Assembly: GCF_024362525.1 (NCBI RefSeq) | Contig: NZ_CP101458.1 | Coordinates: 496,001 to 560,000, forward strand | From: Natrononativus amylolyticus | GTDB taxonomy: Archaea > Halobacteriota > Halobacteria > Halobacteriales > Natrialbaceae | Reading direction: 5' to 3' | Length of the DNA: 64,000 nucleotides | Shown here: positions 6,869 through 55,747 of the stretch, piece by piece | Layout: every line of letters starts with the position of its first letter | Numbering within the stretch: position 1 is the first letter of the stretch | Position numbers and translations under genes: made by a program | Notes under the pieces: generated by a model | The model's input: only the letters and a program-made list of their open reading frames with translations | Database searches by the model: none | What the model was told of the DNA's origin: nothing

Positions 6869-7816
6869 ATGAACGAGACGCGCCGGGCCGTCCTCGAGGC
6901 CCTGGCCGACGGCCCCGCGACCGGCCCCGAACTCGCCGAGAAACTCGGGGTCTCGAGGGCCGCCGTCTGGAAGCAGATCGAGGCGCTGCGCGAGGGCGGC
7001 TTCGAGATCCGCGGCGGCGCCGACGGCTACGAACTCGGCGAGATCACCGCCTACGGCGGGGACGCGATCGAGTTCGGCCTCGAGGCGCCGTTCTCGATCG
7101 AGTACCACGAGTCGATCGCGAGCACGAACGACCGGGCACGGGAACTCGCCGCCGCCGGCGAAGTCGACCGCGTCGTCGTCGCCGACGAGCAGGTCGGCGG
7201 CCGGGGGCGCCTCGATCGGGCCTGGCGGTCCCCGCCGGGGGGCGTCTGGCTGAGCGTCCTCTCCCGGCCGTCGATCCCGCCCGCGGACGCCCCCCTGTAC
7301 ACGCTTGCGGCCGCAGTCGCGACGGCGCGGGCGGCCAGGGAGGCCGGCGTCGACGCCGGCATCAAGTGGCCGAACGACGTGATCGTCCCGCTCGAGGGGA
7401 GCGACGGCGCGTACCGAAAACTCGCCGGGATTCTCACGGAGATGGAAGGCGAGACGGGCCGCGTGGCGTGGCTCGTCGTCGGGATCGGCGTCAACGCCAA
7501 CGTCGACGCCGGAACGCTCCCGGCGGGGTCGACGAGTGTCCGGGCGGAAGCCGGCGACGTCGACCGGCGGCTGTTCGTCCAGCGGCTCCTCGAGACGTTC
7601 GCCGAGCTCCGGGCCGACCTCGAGGCGGTCGCGCCGGCGTGGCGCGAGCTGGCGGTGACTGTCGGTCAGCGAGTTCGCGTCGACGTCGGCGGCGAGCGGG
7701 TCGTCGGCGACGCCGTCGGGATCACCGACTCGGGCGCGCTGGTCGTCGAGACGGCGGACGGACGGGAGCGTATCGCCGCGGGCGACTGCGAGCACCTGCG
7801 CCCCGCTCGAGGGTAG
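6869..7816 (+). CDS. birA: Biotin--[acetyl-CoA-carboxylase] ligase with repressor-type HTH
   Basis: 315 residues. The N-terminal winged helix (about 1-60; GPELAEKLGVSRAAVWKQIEAL) precedes the biotin ligase domain. The adenylate motif GGRGRLDRAWRSPPGG lies at about 110-125, IKWPNDV at about 166-172, and KLAGIL provides the catalytic lysine region. A C-terminal SH3-like domain follows. The enzyme makes biotinyl-AMP and modifies biotin carriers. The HTH suggests it also regulates transcription, as in E. coli BirA; that role is inferred. Confidence 0.93.
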   Translation: MNETRRAVLEALADGPATGPELAEKLGVSRAAVWKQIEALREGGFEIRGGADGYELGEITAYGGDAIEFGLEAPFSIEYHESIASTNDRARELAAAGEVDRVVVADEQVGGRGRLDRAWRSPPGGVWLSVLSRPSIPPADAPLYTLAAAVATARAAREAGVDAGIKWPNDVIVPLEGSDGAYRKLAGILTEMEGETGRVAWLVVGIGVNANVDAGTLPAGSTSVRAEAGDVDRRLFVQRLLETFAELRADLEAVAPAWRELAVTVGQRVRVDVGGERVVGDAVGITDSGALVVETADGRERIAAGDCEHLRPARG

Positions 7817-11096: not shown

Positions 11097-13256
11097 ATGA
11101 GTCTTGCCGATTCGGACCGCGACCTCGTTGTCTCCGAACTCGGACGGGAGCCGACTCCGGCCGAGGCGGCGCTGTTCGAGAACCTCTGGAGCGAACACTG
11201 CGCCTACCGCTCCTCGAGACCGCTGCTGTCGGCTTTCGAGAGCGAGGGCGAGCAGGTCGTCATCGGACCGGGCGACGACGCGGCGGTCGTCGCGCTGCCG
11301 GACACCGAGACGGGCGAGCCCAGCGAGACCTACGTCACCCTGGGAATCGAGAGCCACAACCACCCTTCCTACGTCGACCCGTTCGACGGCGCGGCGACGG
11401 GGGTCGGCGGCATCGTCCGTGACACGCTCTCGATGGGCGCGTATCCCATCGCGCTGACGGACTCGCTGTACTTCGGCGAGTTCGACGACGAGCACTCGAA
11501 GTACCTCCTCGAGGGCGTCGTCGAGGGGATCAGCCACTACGGCAACTGTATCGGCGTCCCCACCGTCGGCGGCAGCGTCGACTTCCACCCCGACTACGAG
11601 GGGAATCCGTTAGTGAACGTCGCCTGCGTCGGGCTCACCGACGCGGGCCGGCTGGTCACCGCCGTCGCCCGGGAGCCGGGGAACCGGCTCGTGCTCGTCG
11701 GGAACGCGACGGGGCGGGACGGCCTCGGCGGCGCGAGCTTCGCCAGCGAGGACCTCGCGGAGGACGCCGAGACCGAGGACCGGCCCGCGGTTCAGGTCGG
11801 CGACCCCTACGCCGAGAAGCTCCTGATCGAGGCCAACGAGGTGCTCGTCGAGGAGAACCTCGTGGAATCGGCCCGCGACCTCGGTGCCGCCGGACTGGGC
11901 GGCGCCTCGAGCGAGATGGTCGCCAAGGGGGGCCTGGGCGCGCACATCGAACTCGAGCGGGTCCACCAGCGCGAGCCGAACATGTCGGCGCTCGAGATCC
12001 TGCTCGCCGAGAGCCAGGAGCGGATGTGCTACGAGGTGGCTCCCGAGAACGTCGACCGCGTGCGGGAGGTCGCCGAGCGATTCGACCTCGGCTGTTCGGT
12101 CATCGGCGACGTCACGGACGGCAACTACGTCTGTACGTTCGAGGGCGAGACGGTCGTCGACGTCGACGCCCACTTCCTCGGCGAGGGCGCGCCGATGAAC
12201 GACCTCCCGGCCGAGGAGCCCGTAGAGCCGGAGACCGACCTCCCTGACGTCGCCCTCGAGGAGGCGTTCGAGGCCGTCGTCGGCAGTCCGAACACCGCCT
12301 CGAAGCGGTGGGTCTACCGCCAGTACGACCACGAGGTCGGCGTCCGGACGAGCGTGGGGCCGGGCGACGACGCGGCGGTCGTCGCGGTGCGGGAGGCCGA
12401 AACCGGCCTCGCCGTCTCCGCCGGCGCCGCACCGAACTGGACGAGCGCCGCCCCCTACGACGGAGCGCGGGCCGTGGCCCTCGAGAACGCGACCAACCTC
12501 GCCGCGAAGGGGGCGACGCCGCTCGCAGCCGTCGACTGCCTGAACGGCGGCAACCCCGAGAAACCCGACGTTTACGGCGGGTTCACGGCGATCGTCGACG
12601 GCCTCGCGTCGATGTGTGCCGCGCTGTCGACGCCGGTCGTCGGCGGCAACGTCTCGCTGTACAACGACTCCGTGACGGGTCCGATTCCGCCGACGCCGAC
12701 GCTCGCGATGGTCGGCACCAAGGCGGGGTACGCCGCGCCGCCGCTCTCGCTTGCCGCCGACCCCGACGCCGAGGTCCTGCTCGTCGGCGACCGCGGTCTC
12801 GAGCGCGAGCGGTTCGCCCTCGGCGGCTCCGAACTGCTGGCCCGGTTCGGCGGGAGCGACCGGTTCCCCGCCCTCCCCGCCGAGCCGGCCGCGCTGATCG
12901 ACGCGCTGGCGACCGTCGCGACCGACGACGCCACGCTCGCGGTCCACGACGTCAGCCACGGCGGCCTCGCGGTCGCCCTCGCCGAGATGGTGCGTGAGGA
13001 CGTCGGTCTCGAGGCGTCGCTCCCCGCCGTCGATCCGATCGGCGCGCTGTTCGCCGAGGCCGTCGGCCGGGCCGTCGTCCAGACGACCGACCCGGCCGGC
13101 GTCCGCGAGGCGTTCGACGGCGTCGCGCCGGTGACGTCGCTCGGCCGGGCGACCGACGACGGCACGCTGACGATAGCCGTCGGCGAGAGCCGTCTCACCG
13201 CGACCGCCGGCGACATCCGCGACCGACGGGCGGTCCTCGAGCGCGAACTCGACTGA
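11097..13256 (+). CDS. purL: Phosphoribosylformylglycinamidine synthase subunit PurL
   Basis: 719 residues, the small-type PurL that works with separate PurS and PurQ. The start ATG 11097 has a TATA-like element 27 bp upstream. Signatures include [16 protein letters not shown] (about 31-46), GPGDDAA (about 57-63 and again in the second half), ESHNHPS (about 83-89), ATGVGGI and [10 protein letters not shown]. It converts FGAR to FGAM with ATP and glutamine-derived ammonia in purine synthesis. Its stop abuts the convergent sensor gene. Confidence 0.96.
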
Positions 13257-48258: not shown

Positions 48259-48390
48259 CGTGCCGCTCGAGTCCGCTGACGTCGACGCTCTCGTTTCGAA
48301 GTCGTCTCCGTCCTCTCATTGCGGTCGGAGGGATTCGAACCACGCTCGCAGGGAAGCTGCTCCCTGGTTCAAATCCTCCTCGTTCATTTT
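48259..48390. repeat. Distal attachment-like repeat: tRNA-Trp 3' end copy plus 46-bp block (orientation A)
   Basis: On the minus strand the sequence GGTTCGAATCCCTCCGACCGCA matches the last 22 nt of tRNA-Trp with two mismatches. A block at 48331-48376 is bounded by inverted T-loop cores GGATTCGAACC and GGTTCAAATCC. The flanks (CTCGTTTCGAAGTCGTCTCC on the left, TCCTCGTTCA on the right) match the second copy at 55405-55540 in the same orientation. The left flank is a broken copy of the start of the zinc-ribbon gene at 55211-55459. Confidence 0.65.
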
Positions 48391-49052
48391 CAGGTCGGGA
48401 GGTGATTTTACGTCGGCTGAGTGGATAGTCGGACACGGCTCTCACTGTGGGGAGCCGCGGTCCGCGGGGGCGAGAGTTCCACGGCTGGCACCCGCACTGG
48501 ACCGTCGGCGTTGCAGGCTGTTTTGCCCATGCTGGTATGAACGAGCGCTGTCGCAGCACGGTGTGAGTGAACGTACTGTCGGCGGTGACAGACTTGCGTT
48601 CGAGACAGTCACGGCTGGCAATAGCGGCGAGCATACCCCGAGCAGTCGTGGTGAAAGAGTCGCCGCAGCTGTGCGTCGCCGAGCGGGGCTTTATAGCCCG
48701 AATGGGTGTTGTGAATCATGCTTCCGTACCGTGTTTACGGGAGCGTTTCGCGGGTCGGTGGTACCAGTACCGGCCTACGATTTCAGGAACTCGAGAGCGT
48801 CAGGCTCCCTGGTATCCGTCGCCACACTGTAGAAACCCCTGTCGCGTATACGATTCCATCGTTCGTAGCTCTACAGACACCTGTATGGGTCAAGAGTGAC
48901 CGTTCCGCAGTGACGATCACCGCGATGTGGGAACCAGTGACCAATGGGACGACCGCGGGTTTCGTGGATGACGCAGGGTGACGAGCGCATCCTCGAGACC
49001 CTGGCCTATGCCGTTCTTAACCATCCCGCAAGCAAATATAAATTGGATACAG
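48391..49052. other. 662-base region without a supported gene
   Basis: Between the distal att-like repeat and the pilin genes. Several short frames are open, but none has convincing composition, promoter or domain. The last 40 bases are AT-rich and form the 3' flank of the pilin gene. It may consist of decayed element sequence. Confidence 0.4.
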
Positions 49053-49490
49053 TTATGCTGTGCTCAGGTCGTGATCCAGTTCGAATGACTGGATGATCGT
49101 TGACTCACCATCATAGACACCTATGATATCGATTTGGTGACCGGCATCACAATCAGTGGCGCCCTCACCTACTGTACCACTATCACCGACTCCAGGATCT
49201 GATGCAGCATCTAAGCCGCTCAGTGTCGCATCACAGTCAGTAGACGCGACTTCAACTGCATCAAGCCGCTGGGCACTCGAAACTTGAATGTGGACATCAT
49301 CTCCATCATCCACCCCCTGAGAGACGCTGAAACTTGCCTGGGGTGGCTGACTCGTTGATCCAATATCTAACACGAACGCTGCAATCACAGCCGCCAGAAT
49401 CACGGTGATGGCGACCATGAGTATTACTCCGATAACGGGACTCACAGCCCGTTCTTCCTCGTTGCCGATCAGCTTCTTTGCGAAATTCAT
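49053..49490 (-). CDS. Type IV pilin (archaeal PilA-like)
   Basis: 145 residues. MNFAKKLIGNEEERAVSPVI is a class III signal with a PibD-type site before the conserved hydrophobic domain (VSPVIGVILMVAITVILAA). The mature part is acidic, with paired cysteines (STDCDATLSG, ATDCDAG), and ends IIGVYDGESTIIQSFELDHD. It would assemble into surface pili or an adhesion filament. It is a close paralogue of the next gene (23-base gap, same strand). No pilus assembly ATPase or membrane platform is in the window. Confidence 0.9.
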   Translation of the reverse strand: MNFAKKLIGNEEERAVSPVIGVILMVAITVILAAVIAAFVLDIGSTSQPPQASFSVSQGVDDGDDVHIQVSSAQRLDAVEVASTDCDATLSGLDAASDPGVGDSGTVGEGATDCDAGHQIDIIGVYDGESTIIQSFELDHDLSTA

Positions 49491-49513
49491 TGTTTTAAGT
49501 ACACTTTTTTGTT

Positions 49514-49942
49514 TTAAAGGTCGTGGTCAAGATCAAATGATTGGATAATCGTCGACTCTCCATCGTAAACACCGATAATATCTATCTCGTCGCCTTCCGT
49601 ACAGCTGCCGCTTAGCTGTTCATTATCACCAACACCTGGGTCTTCTCCAACATCTAAATCCGTGCCCGAGAAACCAGGATCGCTACAATCAGTAGATGCA
49701 ACTTCAACTCCGTCAAGTCGCTCAGCACTCGAAATTTGAACGTGAACGGGGTCACCGTCATCAGTGCCCTGAGACACACTAAAACTTGCCTGAGGTGGTT
49801 GACTCGTCGTTCCGATATCCATCACGAACGCTGCGATCACAGCCGCCAGAATCACAGTAATGGCGACCATGAGAATTACTCCGATAACGGGACTCACAGC
49901 CCGTTCCTCCTTGTTGCCGATCAGCTTCGTTGCGAAGTTCAT
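49514..49942 (-). CDS. Type IV pilin (archaeal PilA-like), tandem paralogue
   Basis: 142 residues from ATG 49942. The signal and hydrophobic domain are nearly identical to the neighbour's (MNFATKLIGNKEERAVSPVI), and the C-terminus is shared (IIGVYDGESTIIQSFDLDHD). The middle differs, including the Cys-containing loops (STDCSDPGFSG, SGSCTEGDE). The pair arose by tandem duplication with divergence of the exposed part. Expected to be processed by the prepilin peptidase and incorporated in a type IV pilus. Confidence 0.9.
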   Translation of the reverse strand: MNFATKLIGNKEERAVSPVIGVILMVAITVILAAVIAAFVMDIGTTSQPPQASFSVSQGTDDGDPVHVQISSAERLDGVEVASTDCSDPGFSGTDLDVGEDPGVGDNEQLSGSCTEGDEIDIIGVYDGESTIIQSFDLDHDL

Positions 49943-50289
49943 TGTTGTCTGTTGTTCTTGCGCCGTGCGAATGATGAGAATCCTTATCAGGGTCCTCGAT
50001 GAACCCCGAACCGACGGGAGGGGGGATGTGCACCCAGTCCCACACCGTCGCTTCTCGAGTCGTCCGCTGGCGTTACCCCTTCCAGTGAAACCACCGGTAA
50101 TAAACACACCAGTTAGTACTGAAATTTTGAGATCCTACTTACATTAAACGTTTTCAGACGTGATAATCAGTTACCAGTAGAAATCGCACAAGGTGTTCTT
50201 GGATAGTTCATACCCGTAGAATATCGGCGATTTGCTGCCATCGGCAATTTTCACCGAAGGATTATACCCTCGAGTGTCAACCCACACCC
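49943..50289. other. 347-base divergent intergenic region
   Basis: Separates the pilin pair (minus) from the HTH protein (plus). The right end has a clear TATA box (GGATTATACC, 50260-50269) for the plus gene. The centre is AT-rich (50090-50180) and probably holds the pilin promoter. No gene is seen. Confidence 0.5.
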
Positions 50290-51117
50290 ATGCCCGAAAA
50301 CGCGGTGGTCCTCGACGAGCGCGACCTCGCGCGCACCTACAACGGCAGCCTATGCGGACCCGTGGACGGCCGTCCTCGCCTACCAGGCGGTGATGAAATA
50401 CGCGAGCGAACACCCGGAGAAGGGCTCGAGTGCGATCTCCTCTGCACTCGAGATTCCCCGCGGTCGCGTTCGGGGGTGGCTCGAGGGCTGAAGCCCGACC
50501 CGGCGAACGCGATCGACGCCCGCGAGCTGGGCTGGCTCGACGCGACGTCCCTCGACCCGGAATTTGTCGCACTGAACACGCTCGTTGCAAACGTCTTTTC
50601 CGGCGGACCGATCGACACGGAGCGGTTCCAACCGATGTTTTCGCTGAACCACCGCCAGCACCGCTCGCACGTGATCGACGCACTCGAGGCGACCGGGCTC
50701 GAGTACGAGTATTACAACGAGGACACCGACGACCGCGCGACCGAAGTCCGGCCGACGATTCACGGCACCGTTCTGGGCCGAACGCTCGCCGTCCTGGGCG
50801 CACCGATCGGTCCGAAGGCCGACCTCGACGACCTCACGTTACCGTGGTATCTCGACGACGCGCCGTACGAAACCCGCGAGATGTTCGCGCTCGCGTACCT
50901 GGCGAACCGGGCGGTTCATCACCGAGAGAAGGACACCCTGACGGTTCGGGAGGTACGCTCGAAGGCATATCGTGACGAACTGGCCGCGTTTCTCGAGGAC
51001 GTCGCGAAAGAGCCCGTCACTTCCGGCGAGCAGTCCATCACGGTTTCCGCTGATGCAGCTCGCTCGCTTGGAGTAAAACCGCGGTACGAAGGTGAGCGCG
51101 TGGCGTCTCGAGAGTAA
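50290..51117 (+). CDS. HTH-type protein with two compensating frameshifts
   Basis: The ATG frame runs 275 residues, but codons about 21-66 are junk-like (Arg/Pro-rich). In the +1 frame from 50351 to 50488 the DNA instead reads YADPWTAVLAYQAVMKYASE... and SSALEIPRGRVRGWLEG, a typical haloarchaeal HTH segment. Sense returns to the ATG frame at KPDPANAIDARELGWLD. The remainder (residues 67-275) is conserved-looking, including NHRQHRSHVIDALEATGLEYEYYNE. Either an HTH knocked out by paired indels or a sequence error. TATA 26 bp upstream of the ATG. Confidence 0.7.
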   Translation: MPENAVVLDERDLARTYNGSLCGPVDGRPRLPGGDEIRERTPGEGLECDLLCTRDSPRSRSGVARGLKPDPANAIDARELGWLDATSLDPEFVALNTLVANVFSGGPIDTERFQPMFSLNHRQHRSHVIDALEATGLEYEYYNEDTDDRATEVRPTIHGTVLGRTLAVLGAPIGPKADLDDLTLPWYLDDAPYETREMFALAYLANRAVHHREKDTLTVREVRSKAYRDELAAFLEDVAKEPVTSGEQSITVSADAARSLGVKPRYEGERVASRE

Positions 51118-51137
51118 TCACTCATTCCGTACAGACT

Positions 51138-51194
51138 CCGTTGTTTACATTCACAGAGTGTGATCGGTTGTAGCAGTTCTGCTGAATACACAGC
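51138..51194 (-). repeat. Dispersed repeat, copy 1 (minus orientation)
   Basis: Read on the minus strand it begins GCTGTGTATTCAGCAG and ends near AAACAACGG, similar to the copies at 52135, 53156 and 54449. Adjacent sequence (GCGCGAATGT) is also shared with the 53156 copy. It sits in the gap between the HTH protein and DUF2270 gene. Confidence 0.5.
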
Positions 51195-51259
51195 GCGAAT
51201 GTGACACGAGGGTCAGCCCGATTTGCGAAGGTAGTGATCGTTCAATACAGAGAACGGAT

Positions 51260-51979
51260 TTATCGGTCTGTCTCTTTCCAGTCGTCCGGGTCCCCTTCAC
51301 GGAATTCACCCTTGGCATGGCGCTCGCGGGGCCAGAAGGCGACGCCCAGCAGCACGACGTAGAACACACCCACAACGGCAGCCACCGCAATCCCGGGGAT
51401 ACGGGCGATTCCAGCGGTTGTCAGCCAGTCTTGGCGCGGCGCGAACGCTGTAATCCTGAAGACCCACGCGAGCAATAGGACACCGAGCAGCGCAAGGTAC
51501 ACACGCCGGAGCCGGTTTACGAGTGCTTCGTATAATGAAACTTTCAGCGTCGGCCTGCGATAGTCCTGGCTCAGTTCCACTCGCCAGTCGTGGCTTTCAG
51601 TGCCCTGGGACGGATCGAGGGCGTTTGCGAACAGGTTCTCTTGGATGACTCGAGCACGAGAGCGAAAGACATCGTAGTCCCGGTACCGCCGTGCTTCTAT
51701 GCCCAGAAAGATGGTGACGACAACGATCCCGATCAGCAAGATATAATGTGGGTTATCGGTACTCGAAAACGCCCACGTCAAGATTGCTGCCATCAGCGTC
51801 ACCGCCCACGTCGTCGTCTCGTCGAGGCGCTGGCGCCACGTCCCCACTCGGTCTATCTCTCCGCGATAGGCGTGGGCCATCACCGAACCGAGTCCCGTAC
51901 TGTCGTCAACCATTTCGCGGCCGATCTCCCGTTGGTCTGGTGCTGTTGGGTCGAACTCGTCGCTACTCGAGTCGGTCAT
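51260..51979 (-). CDS. DUF2270 family membrane protein
   Basis: 239 residues. HAYRGEIDRVGTWRQRLDETTTWAV (from about 36) and FLGIEARRYRDYDVFRSRARV (about 90-110) are family hallmarks, around two pairs of membrane helices (about 60-95 and 165-225). DUF2270 proteins are predicted integral membrane proteins of unknown function, frequent in haloarchaea. Here it is isolated between two copies of a dispersed repeat, on the strand opposite to its neighbours. Confidence 0.88.
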   Translation of the reverse strand: MTDSSSDEFDPTAPDQREIGREMVDDSTGLGSVMAHAYRGEIDRVGTWRQRLDETTTWAVTLMAAILTWAFSSTDNPHYILLIGIVVVTIFLGIEARRYRDYDVFRSRARVIQENLFANALDPSQGTESHDWRVELSQDYRRPTLKVSLYEALVNRLRRVYLALLGVLLLAWVFRITAFAPRQDWLTTAGIARIPGIAVAAVVGVFYVVLLGVAFWPRERHAKGEFREGDPDDWKETDR

Positions 51980-52134
51980 AGAGGAGAGACATCTCCTCGC
52001 TCCATAAGCAGGTATGGTGACAGCGTAATCTGGGTGTCATGTGCTGGCGAACATCGAACAGTACGCACGCACAATGATCGGCTGATTCAACGTAATCAGA
52101 CCGAAACAAACGAAAGTGACCGTGCTAAATAGAT

Positions 52135-52186
52135 GCTCTGTATGTAGCAGGCGGCTTCTGTCAATTCTCAAGGGTGTCAACAGACC
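52135..52186 (+). repeat. Dispersed repeat, copy 2 (plus orientation)
   Basis: Starts GCTCTGTATGTAGCAGG and ends GGGTGTCAACAGACC. Clearly related to the 54449 copy across its length and lies between the DUF2270 gene and the small gene at 52263. Confidence 0.55.
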
Positions 52187-52262
52187 TAATTTCTAGGTTT
52201 CACCTTCTGGCGCGTCGGGTTTATTACGCGATTCCGGAACGTCTCGCCTGGGTTTCACACCT

Positions 52263-52454
52263 ATGGCAACATTGTGGAATTTCGGAAGACCGAACAGTAG
52301 CAGTACCGGAGAGGACGAAATCGACCTGATCGGCGTTTTCGCGTCGATGATTCTGCCCATTACGGGGTCGCTGATGTTCGAGGTGTTCAGCCTCGAGATC
52401 AACGTCTTCGGAGGGTACAACCTGACCGACGCGATCTGGACAGTCGGCGAATAG
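52263..52454 (+). CDS. Small membrane-anchored protein (63 aa)
   Basis: MATLWNFGRPNSSSTGEDEI followed by one hydrophobic segment (DLIGVFASMILPITGSLMFEVF) and a polar end (NLTDAIWTVGE). The codon composition is less GC-biased than in core genes, in keeping with the island. No family is recognised. Confidence 0.5.
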   Translation: MATLWNFGRPNSSSTGEDEIDLIGVFASMILPITGSLMFEVFSLEINVFGGYNLTDAIWTVGE

Positions 52455-52789
52455 CCATCACAGACATATTTTAGCGTCAGTCGCTGACGGTACCGTTCAT
52501 CTTAATATTGGACTTGCTGTGCTCCAGACTACCGGGGCGCTATGGCGTATGTGCGGAATCCTGCACACCACCATCGCACGTACCATTTGGACCTGTCAGA
52601 GGCACGCTCCCCCGGTACTACCCCAACCCCATCCGATCGTCGGCTGTTCTAACAGTCGTTGGTAGTACGGTTTCTTTATTCAGAGTTCGGTGTGAAACTC
52701 GCGGTCAGTCCAGGCGAGGCTGAGTAGATCAGAGTCATTCACTCACTATCTCACACCAAGTATAACCGCCTACGGGGCGTCTATGGATT
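52455..52789. other. 335-base gap, no supported gene
   Basis: An open plus frame ends at 52723 (…EFGVKLAVSPGEAE) but lacks a convincing start; it may be the tail of a decayed gene. The right end carries the TATA element (AGTATAACC, 52759-52767) of the HalOD1 gene. Confidence 0.35.
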
Positions 52790-53065
52790 GTGATAGATCA
52801 TAACACAAGCTCGGAGTCAGTCCAGAGCCAATACGATTGGTCAAATGTAGCACCAAGCATGGTCATCATCGATGCTCTTGCTTCTCTGGAAGACGTGAAA
52901 CCAGTCGATCTTCCGTCAGTACTGGACGACCCACTGTATGATTTTATCGATCCAGAAGCACTTGATGTGCTTGTTACTGATAAGGGGGCGATTTCTATTT
53001 CCTTCACCATTGCCGATTACGATATTCAAATTGACGGAGACGAGTTGCGAATCCACTACAAGTGA
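52790..53065 (+). CDS. HalOD1 output-domain protein (island copy)
   Basis: 91 residues from GTG 52790, which is 25-30 bp downstream of a TATA box and so likely leaderless. The HalOD1 core is APSMVIIDALASLEDVKPVD, then LPSVLDDPLYDFIDPEAL and AISISFTIADYDIQIDGDEL. Lower GC than the copy at 47508. It probably acts as a signalling output module; partner unknown. Confidence 0.8.
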   Translation: MIDHNTSSESVQSQYDWSNVAPSMVIIDALASLEDVKPVDLPSVLDDPLYDFIDPEALDVLVTDKGAISISFTIADYDIQIDGDELRIHYK

Positions 53066-53155
53066 GGTATCTGGTGAAACCCTGCAGTAAGTTTGCATCT
53101 GCACGTAACGATTCGACCGATCCAGTTTCAAGCCCATGTCTGAATAAAAAATCGT

Positions 53156-53214
53156 GGGCTTTGTTGAAAGCCTCAAACGGTGACCGGTTTTTGGAATCGT
53201 GCTGAATAGAGAGC
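53156..53214 (-). repeat. Dispersed repeat, copy 3 (minus orientation)
   Basis: On the minus strand it begins GCTCTCTATTCAGCACGATT and ends GGCTTTCAACAAAGCCC; the last part is itself a hairpin (GGCTTT-GTT-GAAAGCC on the plus strand). It matches copies 2 and 4 in inverted orientation and lies between the HalOD1 and DUF7344-like genes. Confidence 0.55.
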
Positions 53215-53300
53215 GCGAATGTAGCACAGACTGAGGAGCGATCAACACGGAAGGTCGAACGCTCAGTACAGGTGGACGGCGTAACGAATCGGGTACGTCC

Positions 53301-53510
53301 TTATCCATCCGGTCGTTCTTCTTTCCACTTCTCGTCAAATTGTGGCCCCTTTTTCACGAGGTCGCTGTTCCTGTCCCAGATTATCACTCCTTGGTCTTTG
53401 AGTTCTAACAGCGGGATGTGGCGCAACCGAAGACGGAGTTTCGCCACGTCTTCGTCGGCAGAAGGTGGGTCATTACCGGACGTGTCTGTGGGTTGGGTGC
53501 TCTCAACCAT
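53301..53510 (-). CDS. DUF7344-like fragment or small protein (69 aa)
   Basis: Residues about 25-60 (LRLRLRHIPLLELKDQGVII, then WDRNSDLVKKGPQFDE) resemble the C-terminal part of the haloarchaeal DUF7344 winged-helix domain. The N-terminal helix-turn-helix expected before it is missing or replaced by a disordered stretch (MVESTQPTDTSGNDPPSADED). It may be a truncated regulator or a genuine half-domain protein. Family name is from memory. Confidence 0.5.
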   Translation of the reverse strand: MVESTQPTDTSGNDPPSADEDVAKLRLRLRHIPLLELKDQGVIIWDRNSDLVKKGPQFDEKWKEERPDG

Positions 53511-53654
53511 CGACTGTCTGAGGCGGCGAACACGGATTAACCCCCAGCATTTTCACTGAATTCCTGTGTTTGATTAATTGAGAGACAGCATAGATCGTAC
53601 ACTCACCGCTTCCTCTATCAGAATTCCCATATGAGTGGGAGTCCATCTGTCGCT

Positions 53655-54326
53655 ATGGCGACGATCGTCGAGTTTAGTATCCCGGTTGAGGAATTCGCGC
53701 TCACCGAGACCCTCGAGCGTCTGCCGGAGATGGTGTTCCGGATCGACCGTGTTGTCGCACACGATACGGATCATCTGATGCCGTTCGTCTGGGCCTCACG
53801 GGGCGATTTTGATGTCTTGACGAGGGTACTCGAAGACGACTCGACCGTCACGAGTATCGATCACCTCACGACGATCAACGAGGAGCGTCTCTACCGGATG
53901 GAATGGACCGACAAGGCCCACATTCTGGGGTATATGGTGATCGAACACGGGGCGACCGTCCAGCGGGCGACGGCACACGACGACCAATGGGATTTGCGTG
54001 TCCTGTTCCCCGAACAGAGCGAGATTTCGGCAACAGCCCAGTACGCCAGGGATAATGGCTACCGGCTTGATGTGACGCGCGTCTATGATGTCAGTAATAT
54101 CCAAAAAGTGTGGTTCGATCTGACTGAAGATCAGCATGAAGCGCTTGTTGCGGCGGTTGAACACGGGTACTTCAACATCCCTCGTGATATCGCCCAAGAA
54201 GACCTCTCCGAACACCTCGGTATTTCTCATCAAGCGACGTCAGAGCGGCTTCGGCGAGCGTTCAAGGGACTCGCCGAGAACGTTGTTCACTCAACCGCCG
54301 ATGAGTACGCGTCCGGTGAGAAGTGA
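53655..54326 (+). CDS. HTH_10 (bacterio-opsin activator type) regulator
   Basis: 223 residues from ATG 53655, favoured because a CCATATGA element lies 25 bp upstream and family members begin MATIVEFSIP. The N-terminal ligand/regulatory domain (1-150) is followed by the HTH_10 (about 160-215; LTEDQHEALVAAVEHGYFNI, then EDLSEHLGISHQATSERLRR). A stand-alone transcription factor in the island with no obvious divergent target; it may control island genes. Confidence 0.88.
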   Translation: MATIVEFSIPVEEFALTETLERLPEMVFRIDRVVAHDTDHLMPFVWASRGDFDVLTRVLEDDSTVTSIDHLTTINEERLYRMEWTDKAHILGYMVIEHGATVQRATAHDDQWDLRVLFPEQSEISATAQYARDNGYRLDVTRVYDVSNIQKVWFDLTEDQHEALVAAVEHGYFNIPRDIAQEDLSEHLGISHQATSERLRRAFKGLAENVVHSTADEYASGEK

Positions 54327-54448
54327 ACTCGCGTGAGTCGTCTGTACACTGTCTCACGTTGTTCTCAGATGCGCAGTTTGCAGGTTCTCTTTCGGGTATC
54401 TCAGCGTTGGAAGAGTGAGATAACGCCAACCGTTGTTCTGTACTCATC

Positions 54449-54500
54449 CTCTGTATTTAGCAGGTGATTCCTCTCAGTCACAGAGGGTTTCAACAAGGCC
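54449..54500 (+). repeat. Dispersed repeat, copy 4 (plus orientation)
   Basis: Starts CCTCTGTATTTAGCAGG and ends GGGTTTCAACAAGGCC. Closest to copy 2 (52135). It lies directly downstream of the integrase fragment's stop, at the border between the regulator and integrase operon. Confidence 0.55.
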
Positions 54501-54511
54501 AAATCGTGCTA

Positions 54512-54862
54512 TTATCTACTGCTAATATTCGTTTCGACGATGAAGGCTGAATTAGAGCCAGTCGACTTTCTCCGCTTCTCGAGCCTGCACACGCTCCGAA
54601 CGCTTCCCAGGTAGTGGCGTTGAAACGTCTCGTAATCGTCCCACCCGCCCCACTGCATCAGCACTGACGGGAGCACTTCGGCCTCGAGCGCCAGGTGCCC
54701 CCATGTCCGGCGGAGATCGTGCGGCCCAACGTACAGCCACCGATCGTCGGTATCGTCCTCAGCGAGTTCCGCAGCTGCACTCCCGACCCACCGCCGAACC
54801 GTCCGCGGTGTGCCCTCGAGGACGCGATCGCCGTCACCGGGCGTGGGCGTGGACTGACTCAC
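54512..54862 (-). pseudogene. C-terminal half of a tyrosine recombinase/integrase
   Basis: 116 residues from GTG 54862. GPHDLRRTWGHLALE supplies the HxxR motif, VLMQWGGWDDYETF follows, and FQRHYLGS carries the nucleophilic tyrosine. The N-terminal SAM-like core-binding domain and the first catalytic arginine region are absent, so the protein is about one third of a full integrase. It overlaps the upstream small gene by 4 bases. Probably the disabled integrase of the island; it might still bind DNA or act with a partner. Confidence 0.75.
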
Positions 54863-54996
54863 GCCGACTCACCACCCGAGACGACCTCGAGCGCCCGACG
54901 ATCCTCCTCGTCGTCGGCCTGCGTTGCCGGGTGGGCGATGGGCGTCCGACTCGGAACGTGGTACAGCTGACTCGCGCGGACGAACTCGCGCGTCAT
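54859..54996 (-). CDS. Small island protein (45 aa), integrase-operon member
   Basis: MTREFVRASQLYHVPSRTPI, ending RRALEVVSGGESA; disordered and acidic in its second half. ATG 54996 overlaps the preceding gene's TGA (ATGA), and its own TGA overlaps the integrase GTG. The overlap chain on the minus strand supports it as a real coding unit. Unknown family. Confidence 0.6.
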   Translation of the reverse strand: MTREFVRASQLYHVPSRTPIAHPATQADDEEDRRALEVVSGGESA

Positions 54997-55214
54997 CGGT
55001 CCACCTCCCGGTCAATTTCAGGTCGTAGGAGCCTCCGTTTCCCTACCCATTCTTCCGGCAAGGAGTTACCGTAAGCGACGGATTGATTCGTGTGAGCACC
55101 GTTCGCACGTATCGTCCCGGAGTAGGTCTCCGTCGCAAAGACTACCCCCGGGACACTCTTTCCACGAACCGACGAAGTAAAACGGCCGGTAATGACCGTA
55201 ACGCGACTACTCAT
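54993..55214 (-). CDS. Small island protein (73 aa), integrase-operon member
   Basis: ATG 55214 (MSSRVTVITGRFTSSVRGKS) overlaps the zinc-ribbon gene's stop by 4 bases, and its TGA overlaps the next ATG. The protein is basic with a beta-like start and ends LLRPEIDREVDR. No known motif; the coupling to integrase suggests an accessory or excisionase-like role, which is only inferred. Confidence 0.55.
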   Translation of the reverse strand: MSSRVTVITGRFTSSVRGKSVPGVVFATETYSGTIRANGAHTNQSVAYGNSLPEEWVGKRRLLRPEIDREVDR

Positions 55215-55459
55215 CGGTCCGCCTCACCCCCATCGGTGAGCATGGGCGTAGCCCGATACGTCCCCGTCCGCCGCAATCGTCGCGGACAGTCCCGCCAGTG
55301 ACCGGCTTCGGAAATGCCGTCGGTCAGTCGCGTGCAGCGACTGTTGCAGATCGAACAGCGGAACTCCCGCGACGTCCTGGGACGTGGGCGCGAGCGGATG
55401 CGCCGCTCGAGTTTGGTGAGGTCGACCCTCTCGTTTCGAGGAGTCGTCTCCGTACTAAT
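55211..55459 (-). CDS. Zinc-ribbon protein starting at ATT, first gene of the integrase operon
   Basis: The frame reads (ATT)-STETTPRNERVDLTKLE, then CSICNSRC (CxxC) and GHWRDCP, and ends DGGEADR with TGA at 55211-55213 overlapping the next ATG. There is no in-frame ATG, GTG or TTG before the zinc motif. ATT at 55457-55459 sits exactly where an ATG-AGT-ACG start would be expected. Either a rare start codon is used or the start has been lost. The 5' end lies within the repeat at 55405-55540. Confidence 0.5.
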   Translation of the reverse strand: MSTETTPRNERVDLTKLERRIRSRPRPRTSREFRCSICNSRCTRLTDGISEAGHWRDCPRRLRRTGTYRATPMLTDGGEADR

Positions 55460-55540
55460 ACGGGATAATTGCAGTCGGAAGGGATTTGAACCAGGGAGCA
55501 GCTTCGCTGCGACCGTGCTTCAATCCTCCTCGTTCAGTAC
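55405..55540. repeat. Proximal attachment-like repeat: tRNA-Trp 3' end copy plus 45-bp block (orientation B)
   Basis: On the minus strand, GGTTCAAATCCCTTCCGACTGCA resembles the tRNA-Trp 3' end. The inner block (55482-55526) matches the reverse complement of the block at 48331-48376 with three substitutions and one missing base. The flanking sequences on both sides match the 48259-48390 copy in direct orientation. Only about 45 bp separates it from the real tRNA-Trp. Confidence 0.65.
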
Positions 55541-55572
55541 TCACCGCTCACGAGATCGTTCGCGGTGAGGAA

Positions 55573-55747
55573 TGGGGTCGGAGGGATTTGAACCCCCGAT
55601 CGACTGATATCTCCGGTGCGCCTCGGAACTCCAGAGGGTCATCACACGGACACTGATCAGGTGCCCGATCAGTATATCAGTCTGGAGTGTCGTCCCGGGC
55701 GCGGTGCCTCTGGAGTCAGTCGCCATGCCTGGCTTGGCCACGACCCC
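55573..55747 (-). tRNA. tRNA-Trp (CCA) with 101-nt intron
   Basis: Exon 1 (55747-55710) starts GGGGTCG, has D-stem GCCA/TGGC and anticodon stem ACTGA with loop CTCCAG (anticodon CCA). Exon 2 (55608-55573) has A38, TCAGT closing the anticodon stem, then variable CGATC, T-arm GGGGG-TTCAAAT-CCCTC and acceptor CGACCCC plus discriminator A. All stems pair. The intron interrupts after position 37, the classic archaeal site. CCA is not encoded. The gene's 3' end is the insertion point of the island. Confidence 0.95.
55609..55709 (-). ncRNA. tRNA-Trp intron with box C/D guide RNA features
   Basis: 101 nt removed by the bulge-helix-bulge endonuclease. It contains a C-box-like GTGATGA and CTGA D-box-like motifs (two closely spaced, in GACTGATATACTGATC). 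In Haloferax and relatives the tRNA-Trp intron is known to guide 2'-O-methylation of positions 34 and 39 of its own pre-tRNA; the same role is inferred here. Confidence 0.75.

Follow-up and report, generated by a model that had tools for sequence, protein, structure and literature searches.

Results

A chain of overlapping ORFs ending in a truncated recombinase

The window analysed here is a stretch of 64 kb (G000:C1:496001-560000), and two paralogous elements, E8 at a tRNA-Tyr (locus L008) and E9 at a tRNA-Arg, lie on the same contig. The four overlapping minus-strand open reading frames (ORFs) of the original prediction are all present as placed (Table 1), and the claimed overlaps were borne out as well (ATGA at 55211-55214, ATGA at 54993-54996 and GTGA at 54859-54862). 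The frame of the first, zinc-ribbon-like ORF exists and is open over 103 codons, but no ATG, GTG or TTG lies ahead of its conserved domain: the codon drawn as its start at 55459 is ATT, and a frame scan placed the sole in-frame start candidates near the 3' end. The zinc-ribbon family is present in 25 of the 125 family genomes. The protein hit no Pfam family above cut-off and had no match among plasmids, and the phage collection gave a weak match to Humcor2 alone (E 0.02). When aligned to gp25 of the Natrinema virus SNJ2 (NC_074646), it did not rise above shuffle level, and the two genes are equivalent by position only.

The second ORF, which had been taken for a gene of 73 aa, probably is not one. 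It has no convincing homologue in the 125 family genomes, as matches at E ≤ 0.01 occurred in three, namely at its own locus and at two marginal ones (E 0.007 and 0.009). Its composition is deviant, with a third-position GC of 0.57 compared to 0.72-0.80 in the other three ORFs, and 4.2% of its mononucleotide shuffles remain open. Neither this ORF nor the variable spot that it fills matched E8 or E9 by blastn or in alignments. In the variable spot of E8 (L008 6854-7012, minus), the opposite strand could encode a 52-aa zinc-finger-like protein, of which no counterpart was recognised in the variable spot of the window. The 45-aa gene, judging by its matches, is real and widespread: it was found in 73 of the 125 family genomes, agrees at 91% with the E8 copy and, in two comparisons, at 57% and at 61% (E 2e-9) with SNJ2 gp24, and the E8 copy of the protein matches phrog_9008 with E 1.1e-9. 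A sigma-70 and terminator scan of the window is of little information value, the host being archaeal.

The last ORF, of 116 aa, matches the 3' part of PF00589 (Phage_integrase) with E 0.0017 and 18.6 bits (curated cut-off 27.1). As no solved structure matched the recombinase query P0005 at E 0.01, residues were assigned from a family alignment with 28 relatives (tblastn matches in loci L022-L049, with matched stretches of 194-201 aa). In this alignment R52, K81, H145, R148, W171 and Y181 are invariant, and the C-terminal tail is conserved. The fragment retains the equivalents of H145, R148, W171 and Y181, including the predicted HxxR and Tyr (H48-D-L-R51 and Y84 of the 116-aa ORF), and is without R52 and K81, each present in 28 of 28 relatives. 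We take the latter two to be catalytic from the general tyrosine recombinase motif (R..K..HxxR..Y). Alignment with the paralogues further revealed a one-base deletion right after the Tyr, which puts the last ~30 residues out of frame and alters S186 and E193 (28/28 in relatives) as well as L200 (27/28), so that the family-specific tail is lost. Among the 74 surviving recombinase codons, 14 differ from E8 silently and 5 by replacement. This predominance of silent changes indicates that selection was at work during much of the divergence, be it ahead of the deletion or following it. The first residues of the fragment may derive from the start of the Rep-like gene: both proteins begin with SQ behind the initiation codon, and TGAGTCAG and a CCACGCCC stretch are shared, but the remainder differs. 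Scans of the genome contig collection with the 116-aa form (P0002) and with P0005, and of the viral contig collection with P0002, returned no confirmed relative.

The locus lacks an internal stretch of its paralogues

The recombinase fragment and the zinc-ribbon gene each have two close relatives elsewhere on the contig, the fragment having one distant relative in addition. In both E8 and E9, the zinc-ribbon and recombinase genes are not adjacent but several kilobases apart. In E8, the undeleted order starts with the zinc-ribbon gene, the variable spot and the 45-aa gene, continues with the 40-aa ORF, the Rep-like gene and two further ORFs, and ends with the 200-aa recombinase gene, which is complete and includes the first half. 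Three collinear blastn blocks connect the window with E8, covering the zinc-ribbon gene (L008 6577-6800), the 45-aa gene (7119-7283) and the recombinase gene (11441-11721). They are spaced by 192 and 19 nt in the window, compared to 318 and 4157 nt in E8. The window accordingly is without ~4.16 kb of E8, from the stop codon of the 45-aa gene to about codon 107 of the recombinase gene. This gap takes out the 40-aa CxxC ORF, the 539-aa DUF7845 gene and two ORFs longer than 200 aa, and with them approximately the first 106 recombinase codons. By comparison with the paralogues we regard the deletion as established, and the ancestral state at the window locus is deduced from E8 and E9.

The deletion reading of the original prediction is thus supported by two paralogues on the same chromosome; the attribute "recent" is not, as the blocks are 5-17% diverged and further lesions have accumulated. 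Nor does the argument hold that the preserved overlaps speak for recency or function. The GTGA at the stop of the 45-aa gene also occurs in E8 (L008 7274-7277), where it starts the 40-aa ORF and likewise joins the 45-aa gene to the next ORF. The overlap therefore predates the deletion, which lies downstream of it. No single paralogue is uniformly closest to the window. For the recombinase block this is E9, with 95.3% identity over 213 bp, E8 reaching 88.6% over 281 bp. For the zinc-ribbon block (85.3% to E8, 82.8% to E9) and the 45-aa block (92.1% and 86.6%), E8 is the nearer one. Over the part common to both, the recombinase agrees with that of E8 at 92-93%, the 45-aa gene at 91% and the zinc-ribbon gene at 84%.

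Table 1 Features of the locus (positions in the window unless a contig is named)
Feature	Position	Strand	Remarks
E8 provirus	G000:C1:2291357-2311271		L008 from 6358 into L150; tRNA-Tyr, ~20 kb
Far tRNA-Trp-3'-end-like repeat	48320..48341	-	20/22 bases; followed by a copy of the zinc-ribbon ORF 5' region
Pilin-like ORF	49514-50107		between att-like repeats; labelled by reading the sequence
275-aa ORF, SNJ2 gp09 homologue	50290..51117	+	41.7% over gp09 residues 49-258, E 3.4e-40
DUF2270 protein	51260-51979		between att-like repeats
91-aa ORF	52790-53065		between att-like repeats
Bat-type regulator	53631-54326		between att-like repeats
116-aa ORF, 3' part of 200-aa tyrosine recombinase gene	54512..54862	-	in frame from ~codon 107 to just past the Tyr, then out of frame
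Deletion junction	54834..54852	-	19 nt outside both blastn blocks
45-aa gene	54859..54996	-	homologue of SNJ2 gp24 N-terminus (phrog_9008)
73-aa ORF	54993..55214	-	fills variable spot between zinc-ribbon and 45-aa genes
Zinc-ribbon-like (CxxC) gene remnant	55211..55459	-	first viral-operon gene; 83.6% over 73 aa to E8 copy
Near tRNA-3'-end-like att-type repeat	55470..55492	-	80 nt below tRNA-Trp 3' end
tRNA-Trp (anticodon CCA)	55573..55747	-	intron of about 101 nt; Rfam RF00005, 46.2 bits, E 2.5e-7; ARAGORN with introns

Att-like repeats next to a tRNA-Trp gene

Directly upstream of the chain lies a tRNA-Trp gene, which an initial tRNA scan had missed, presumably owing to its intron. Its 3' end is presumed to be the attachment site. 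With this tRNA and the imperfect repeats of its 3' end (Table 1), the locus has the features of attachment at a tRNA 3' end. Both are embedded in a longer direct repeat, whose copies at 55402-55536 and 48262-48386 take in the 5' region of the zinc-ribbon ORF and align with a score of 102, compared to a mean of 16.9 and a maximum of 25 in 200 mononucleotide shuffles. Between the att-like repeats lies the SNJ2 gp09 homologue, which likely is a further relic piece and points in the direction expected from E8 when the zinc-ribbon gene is taken as reference. The Bat-type, 91-aa, DUF2270 and pilin-like genes, likewise within 48320-55594, may be cargo or host genes. In tblastn searches of the 64-kb window at E 1e-4, no match to SNJ2 gp01 or gp12-gp19, the E8 Rep-like protein or the NTPase was obtained. 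The lack of Rep, NTPase, structural genes and SNJ2-type integrase in the window indicates a relic rather than a complete provirus.

The tRNA-Trp is found near a 299-aa gene in relatives as well. We compared the best 30 of 121 genomes for this gene (L088 ends before the tRNA). A pleolipovirus-type gene (E 1e-4) occurs in the flank of 10 of these 30 best-matching loci, the window included and one by a weak integrase match only. Among 17 relatives, the homologues near the tRNA-Trp of window ORFs of at least 90 aa (34.0-55.6 kb) are scattered; the longer loci of these relatives were picked partly for pleolipovirus-type matches and are no measure of frequency. At the tRNA-Arg, the terminal 20 nt of the tRNA stand in three identical copies within ~260 bp ahead of the zinc-ribbon gene (L009 ~11210-11475, minus). 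They resemble scars of repeated integration, and the pattern at the tRNA-Trp of the window is similar. A search of the literature available to us for pleolipovirus proviruses together with tRNA-Trp gave no paper; a Halobaculum pleolipovirus-like provirus at a tryptophan tRNA is mentioned in a supplementary legend of PMC10599561.

E8 resembles a complete SNJ2-type provirus

E8 is flanked by the tRNA-Tyr and, ~19.9 kb away, a 23/25-nt copy of the tRNA-Tyr 3' end, which is adjoined by a homologue of the SNJ2 integrase IntSNJ2 (63.6%). Its interior encodes homologues of SNJ2 gp09, gp12, gp14, gp15, gp17 (the NTPase), gp18, gp19 and gp24. The SNJ2 spike gp13 gave no match in E8 at E 1e-4; the gp14 homologue is separated from that of gp12 by ~2.2 kb. 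The 539-aa protein of E8 belongs to DUF7845 (Rep-Arvir type, E 5.6e-99) and matches 21 records of the phage collection; of the 20 listed, all but Haloferax phage LSV-48N, hence 19, are pleolipoviruses by name or taxonomy. For the 393-aa NTPase, 20 records matched. Having a Rep-Arvir/DUF7845 protein, an NTPase, an SNJ2-type integrase and att repeats, E8 is apparently a complete SNJ2-type (betapleolipovirus-like) provirus that carries both this integrase and a separate intact 200-aa recombinase. In its ends and gene set it thus differs from the window, which retains the SNJ2-type operon start, the gp09 and gp24 homologues and the att-like repeats. The layout of E8 also shows that the recombinase from which the window fragment derives is a second, internal one, located between the Rep-like gene and gp18/NTPase. 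According to a passage in PMC5867852, the stretch from the NTPase to a long reverse ORF is less conserved in betapleolipoviruses. The 200-aa recombinase matched two records of the phage collection at E 1e-3, neither of them SNJ2.

The elements share with SNJ2 the attachment to a tRNA 3' end, a small CxxC gene near att, a gp24-type small gene and a compact overlapping operon leading to a Rep-Arvir gene, the last as described in parts of PMC13107129. The same parts describe a compact orf26-orf19 operon and report that, once SNJ2 is circularised, orf1 to orf19 form a single compact co-transcribed unit with a start site within int. In many pleolipoproviruses, attP lies between int and a CxxC gene, as stated in a section of PMC7911831. 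The tight operon of the original prediction corresponds to this compact SNJ2 operon, an equivalence based on the order of the genes and on the homologues of gp24 and gp19.

Relatives of the 200-aa recombinase

The original prediction held that an N-terminal domain and the first Arg had been lost. The Arg is gone; the parent, however, had no separate N-terminal domain to lose. The complete E8 recombinase is 200 aa long and matches PF00589 with residues 20-182, which identifies it as a protein of the catalytic domain only, and the portion missing from the fragment corresponds to the first half of this domain, including Arg52 and Lys81. The stop-to-stop frames of the 28 relatives span 195-278 codons (26 of 28 at most 251), compared to 349 aa in IntSNJ2, and most relatives thus have little space for such a domain. 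We conclude that the fragment derives from a haloarchaeal group of ~200-aa PF00589-only tyrosine recombinases, the parent being placed in none of the named families in the portion of PMC8371274 available to us, where the tyrosine recombinase active-site motif is partly covered. A distant integrase-like match also lies at G000:C1:347926-348150 (L004, L010), within an open frame of 639 codons (relatives ~600-960), and perhaps belongs to the integrase-plus-BAT family mentioned in the same portion.

Three of the four closest recombinase copies are broken, each in its own way: next to the window copy, the E9 copy has an in-frame TGA with divergence soon after, and the nearest outside homologue, in G104 and about 3 kb from a tRNA-Trp, is split over two frames and has a TGA; the E8 copy is intact. 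In Haloferax phage LSV-48N (PP151251.1, 16065-18680), a 35% relative of the 200-aa recombinase and a gene related to that for DUF7845 are ~600 bp apart. The two genes are also near each other in E8, where, unlike in LSV-48N, they are on the same strand.

The recombinase starts at residue 100 or later in 9 of 124 matches, the window copy included. Apart from the window and G104 copies, seven such matches were inspected along with one starting at residue 73, each in 3.6-4.0 kb. In G085 and G114 the N-terminal half persists in another frame, and the G117 recombinase has an internal deletion. For the pieces in G014, G018, G040 and G050, the inspected stretches showed no N-terminal half of their own; in G050 a separate complete recombinase copy adjoins the piece. 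Used as a query, the 116-aa form found matches in 62 of 125 genomes. Among the matches listed, none besides its own locus covers residues 1-7 or 115-116; four reach residues 108-114, three of them through a stop.

Discussion

Taken together, our findings very strongly favour a decayed SNJ2-type (betapleolipovirus-like) provirus, of which one end survives at the tRNA-Trp 3' end; it would have been disabled by deletions, and its recombinase fragment would have no enzymatic role. In all likelihood the half integrase is a genetic fossil of the ordinary kind and not a functioning mini-enzyme, its presumable lack of function following from the missing residues, the frameshift and the lost start. In the course of events that we propose, a provirus would have inserted site-specifically at the tRNA-Trp, possibly more than once given the several att-like copies. 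One or more tandem insertions and later deletions may have left the att-like repeats with the gp09 homologue between them, and a large deletion would have joined the start of the viral operon to the end of the recombinase gene. As the SNJ2 promoter is on the other side of att, integration would have cut the small genes from the operon promoter, and the disabled provirus would now be drifting. Several points weigh against this reading: the ancestral state is deduced from paralogues, the blocks differ in their closest paralogue, pieces of the C-terminal half recur elsewhere, the surviving recombinase codons changed mostly silently, a viral origin did not emerge for the other genes between 48.3 and 54.5 kb, and the zinc-ribbon gene is equated with gp25 by position only.

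The recombinase half might instead have arrived separately, by a second insertion or by recombination with another element, and not by deletion within one provirus. The 19 junction nucleotides outside both blocks, the att-like copies suggestive of multiple insertions and the differing nearest paralogues of the recombinase part (E9) and of the zinc-ribbon and 45-aa parts (E8) would suit such an origin. However, the blocks keep the order and strand of a single element from which an internal part is missing, and in E8 as well as E9 the recombinase gene follows further downstream, after the zinc-ribbon and 45-aa genes, which makes separate arrival unlikely. Nothing was seen in favour of an assembly or sequencing error, be it at the junction or at the one-base deletion. 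Such an artefact has the slightest chance of all the readings considered, as several independent lesions (the lacking start codon, the deletion and the frameshift) suit decay better than a single error and the genome consists of 3 contigs at 98.6% completeness.

We also consider it very improbable that the fragment is a functional mini-recombinase or DNA-binding derivative, as had been proposed, made from the operon and binding att to block excision or re-infection at the tRNA-Trp. In its favour are an ORF that opens with an overlapping GTG, the retained HxxR and Tyr, and the mostly silent changes of the surviving codons. Other genomes, too, have C-terminal-only pieces, which counts against a relic and gives a small chance that such pieces are retained. 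However, the active-site Arg and Lys are absent and the conserved tail is frameshifted. The parent in E8 is internal, with a separate SNJ2-type integrase at the att end, the chain opens with an ORF that has no usual start codon, and no other match listed shares both ends of the 116-aa form. Just as remote is the prospect that the C-terminal piece is still made, binds the old tRNA-Trp att and acts as a dominant block to re-integration of related viruses; if true, the recurrent C-terminal-only pieces in haloarchaea would reflect domestication instead of decay.

The relic reading of the window has consequences for how such loci are interpreted. A neat chain of overlapping starts and stops is weak evidence of function, because viral replication operons are built in this way and a deletion can spare an overlap while fusing the operon to a broken gene. 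One genome thereby gains a tRNA-Trp relic and two further SNJ2-like elements, one of them apparently complete. The findings also point to a small recombinase without N-terminal domain inside SNJ2-like proviruses, broken in most of its closest copies.
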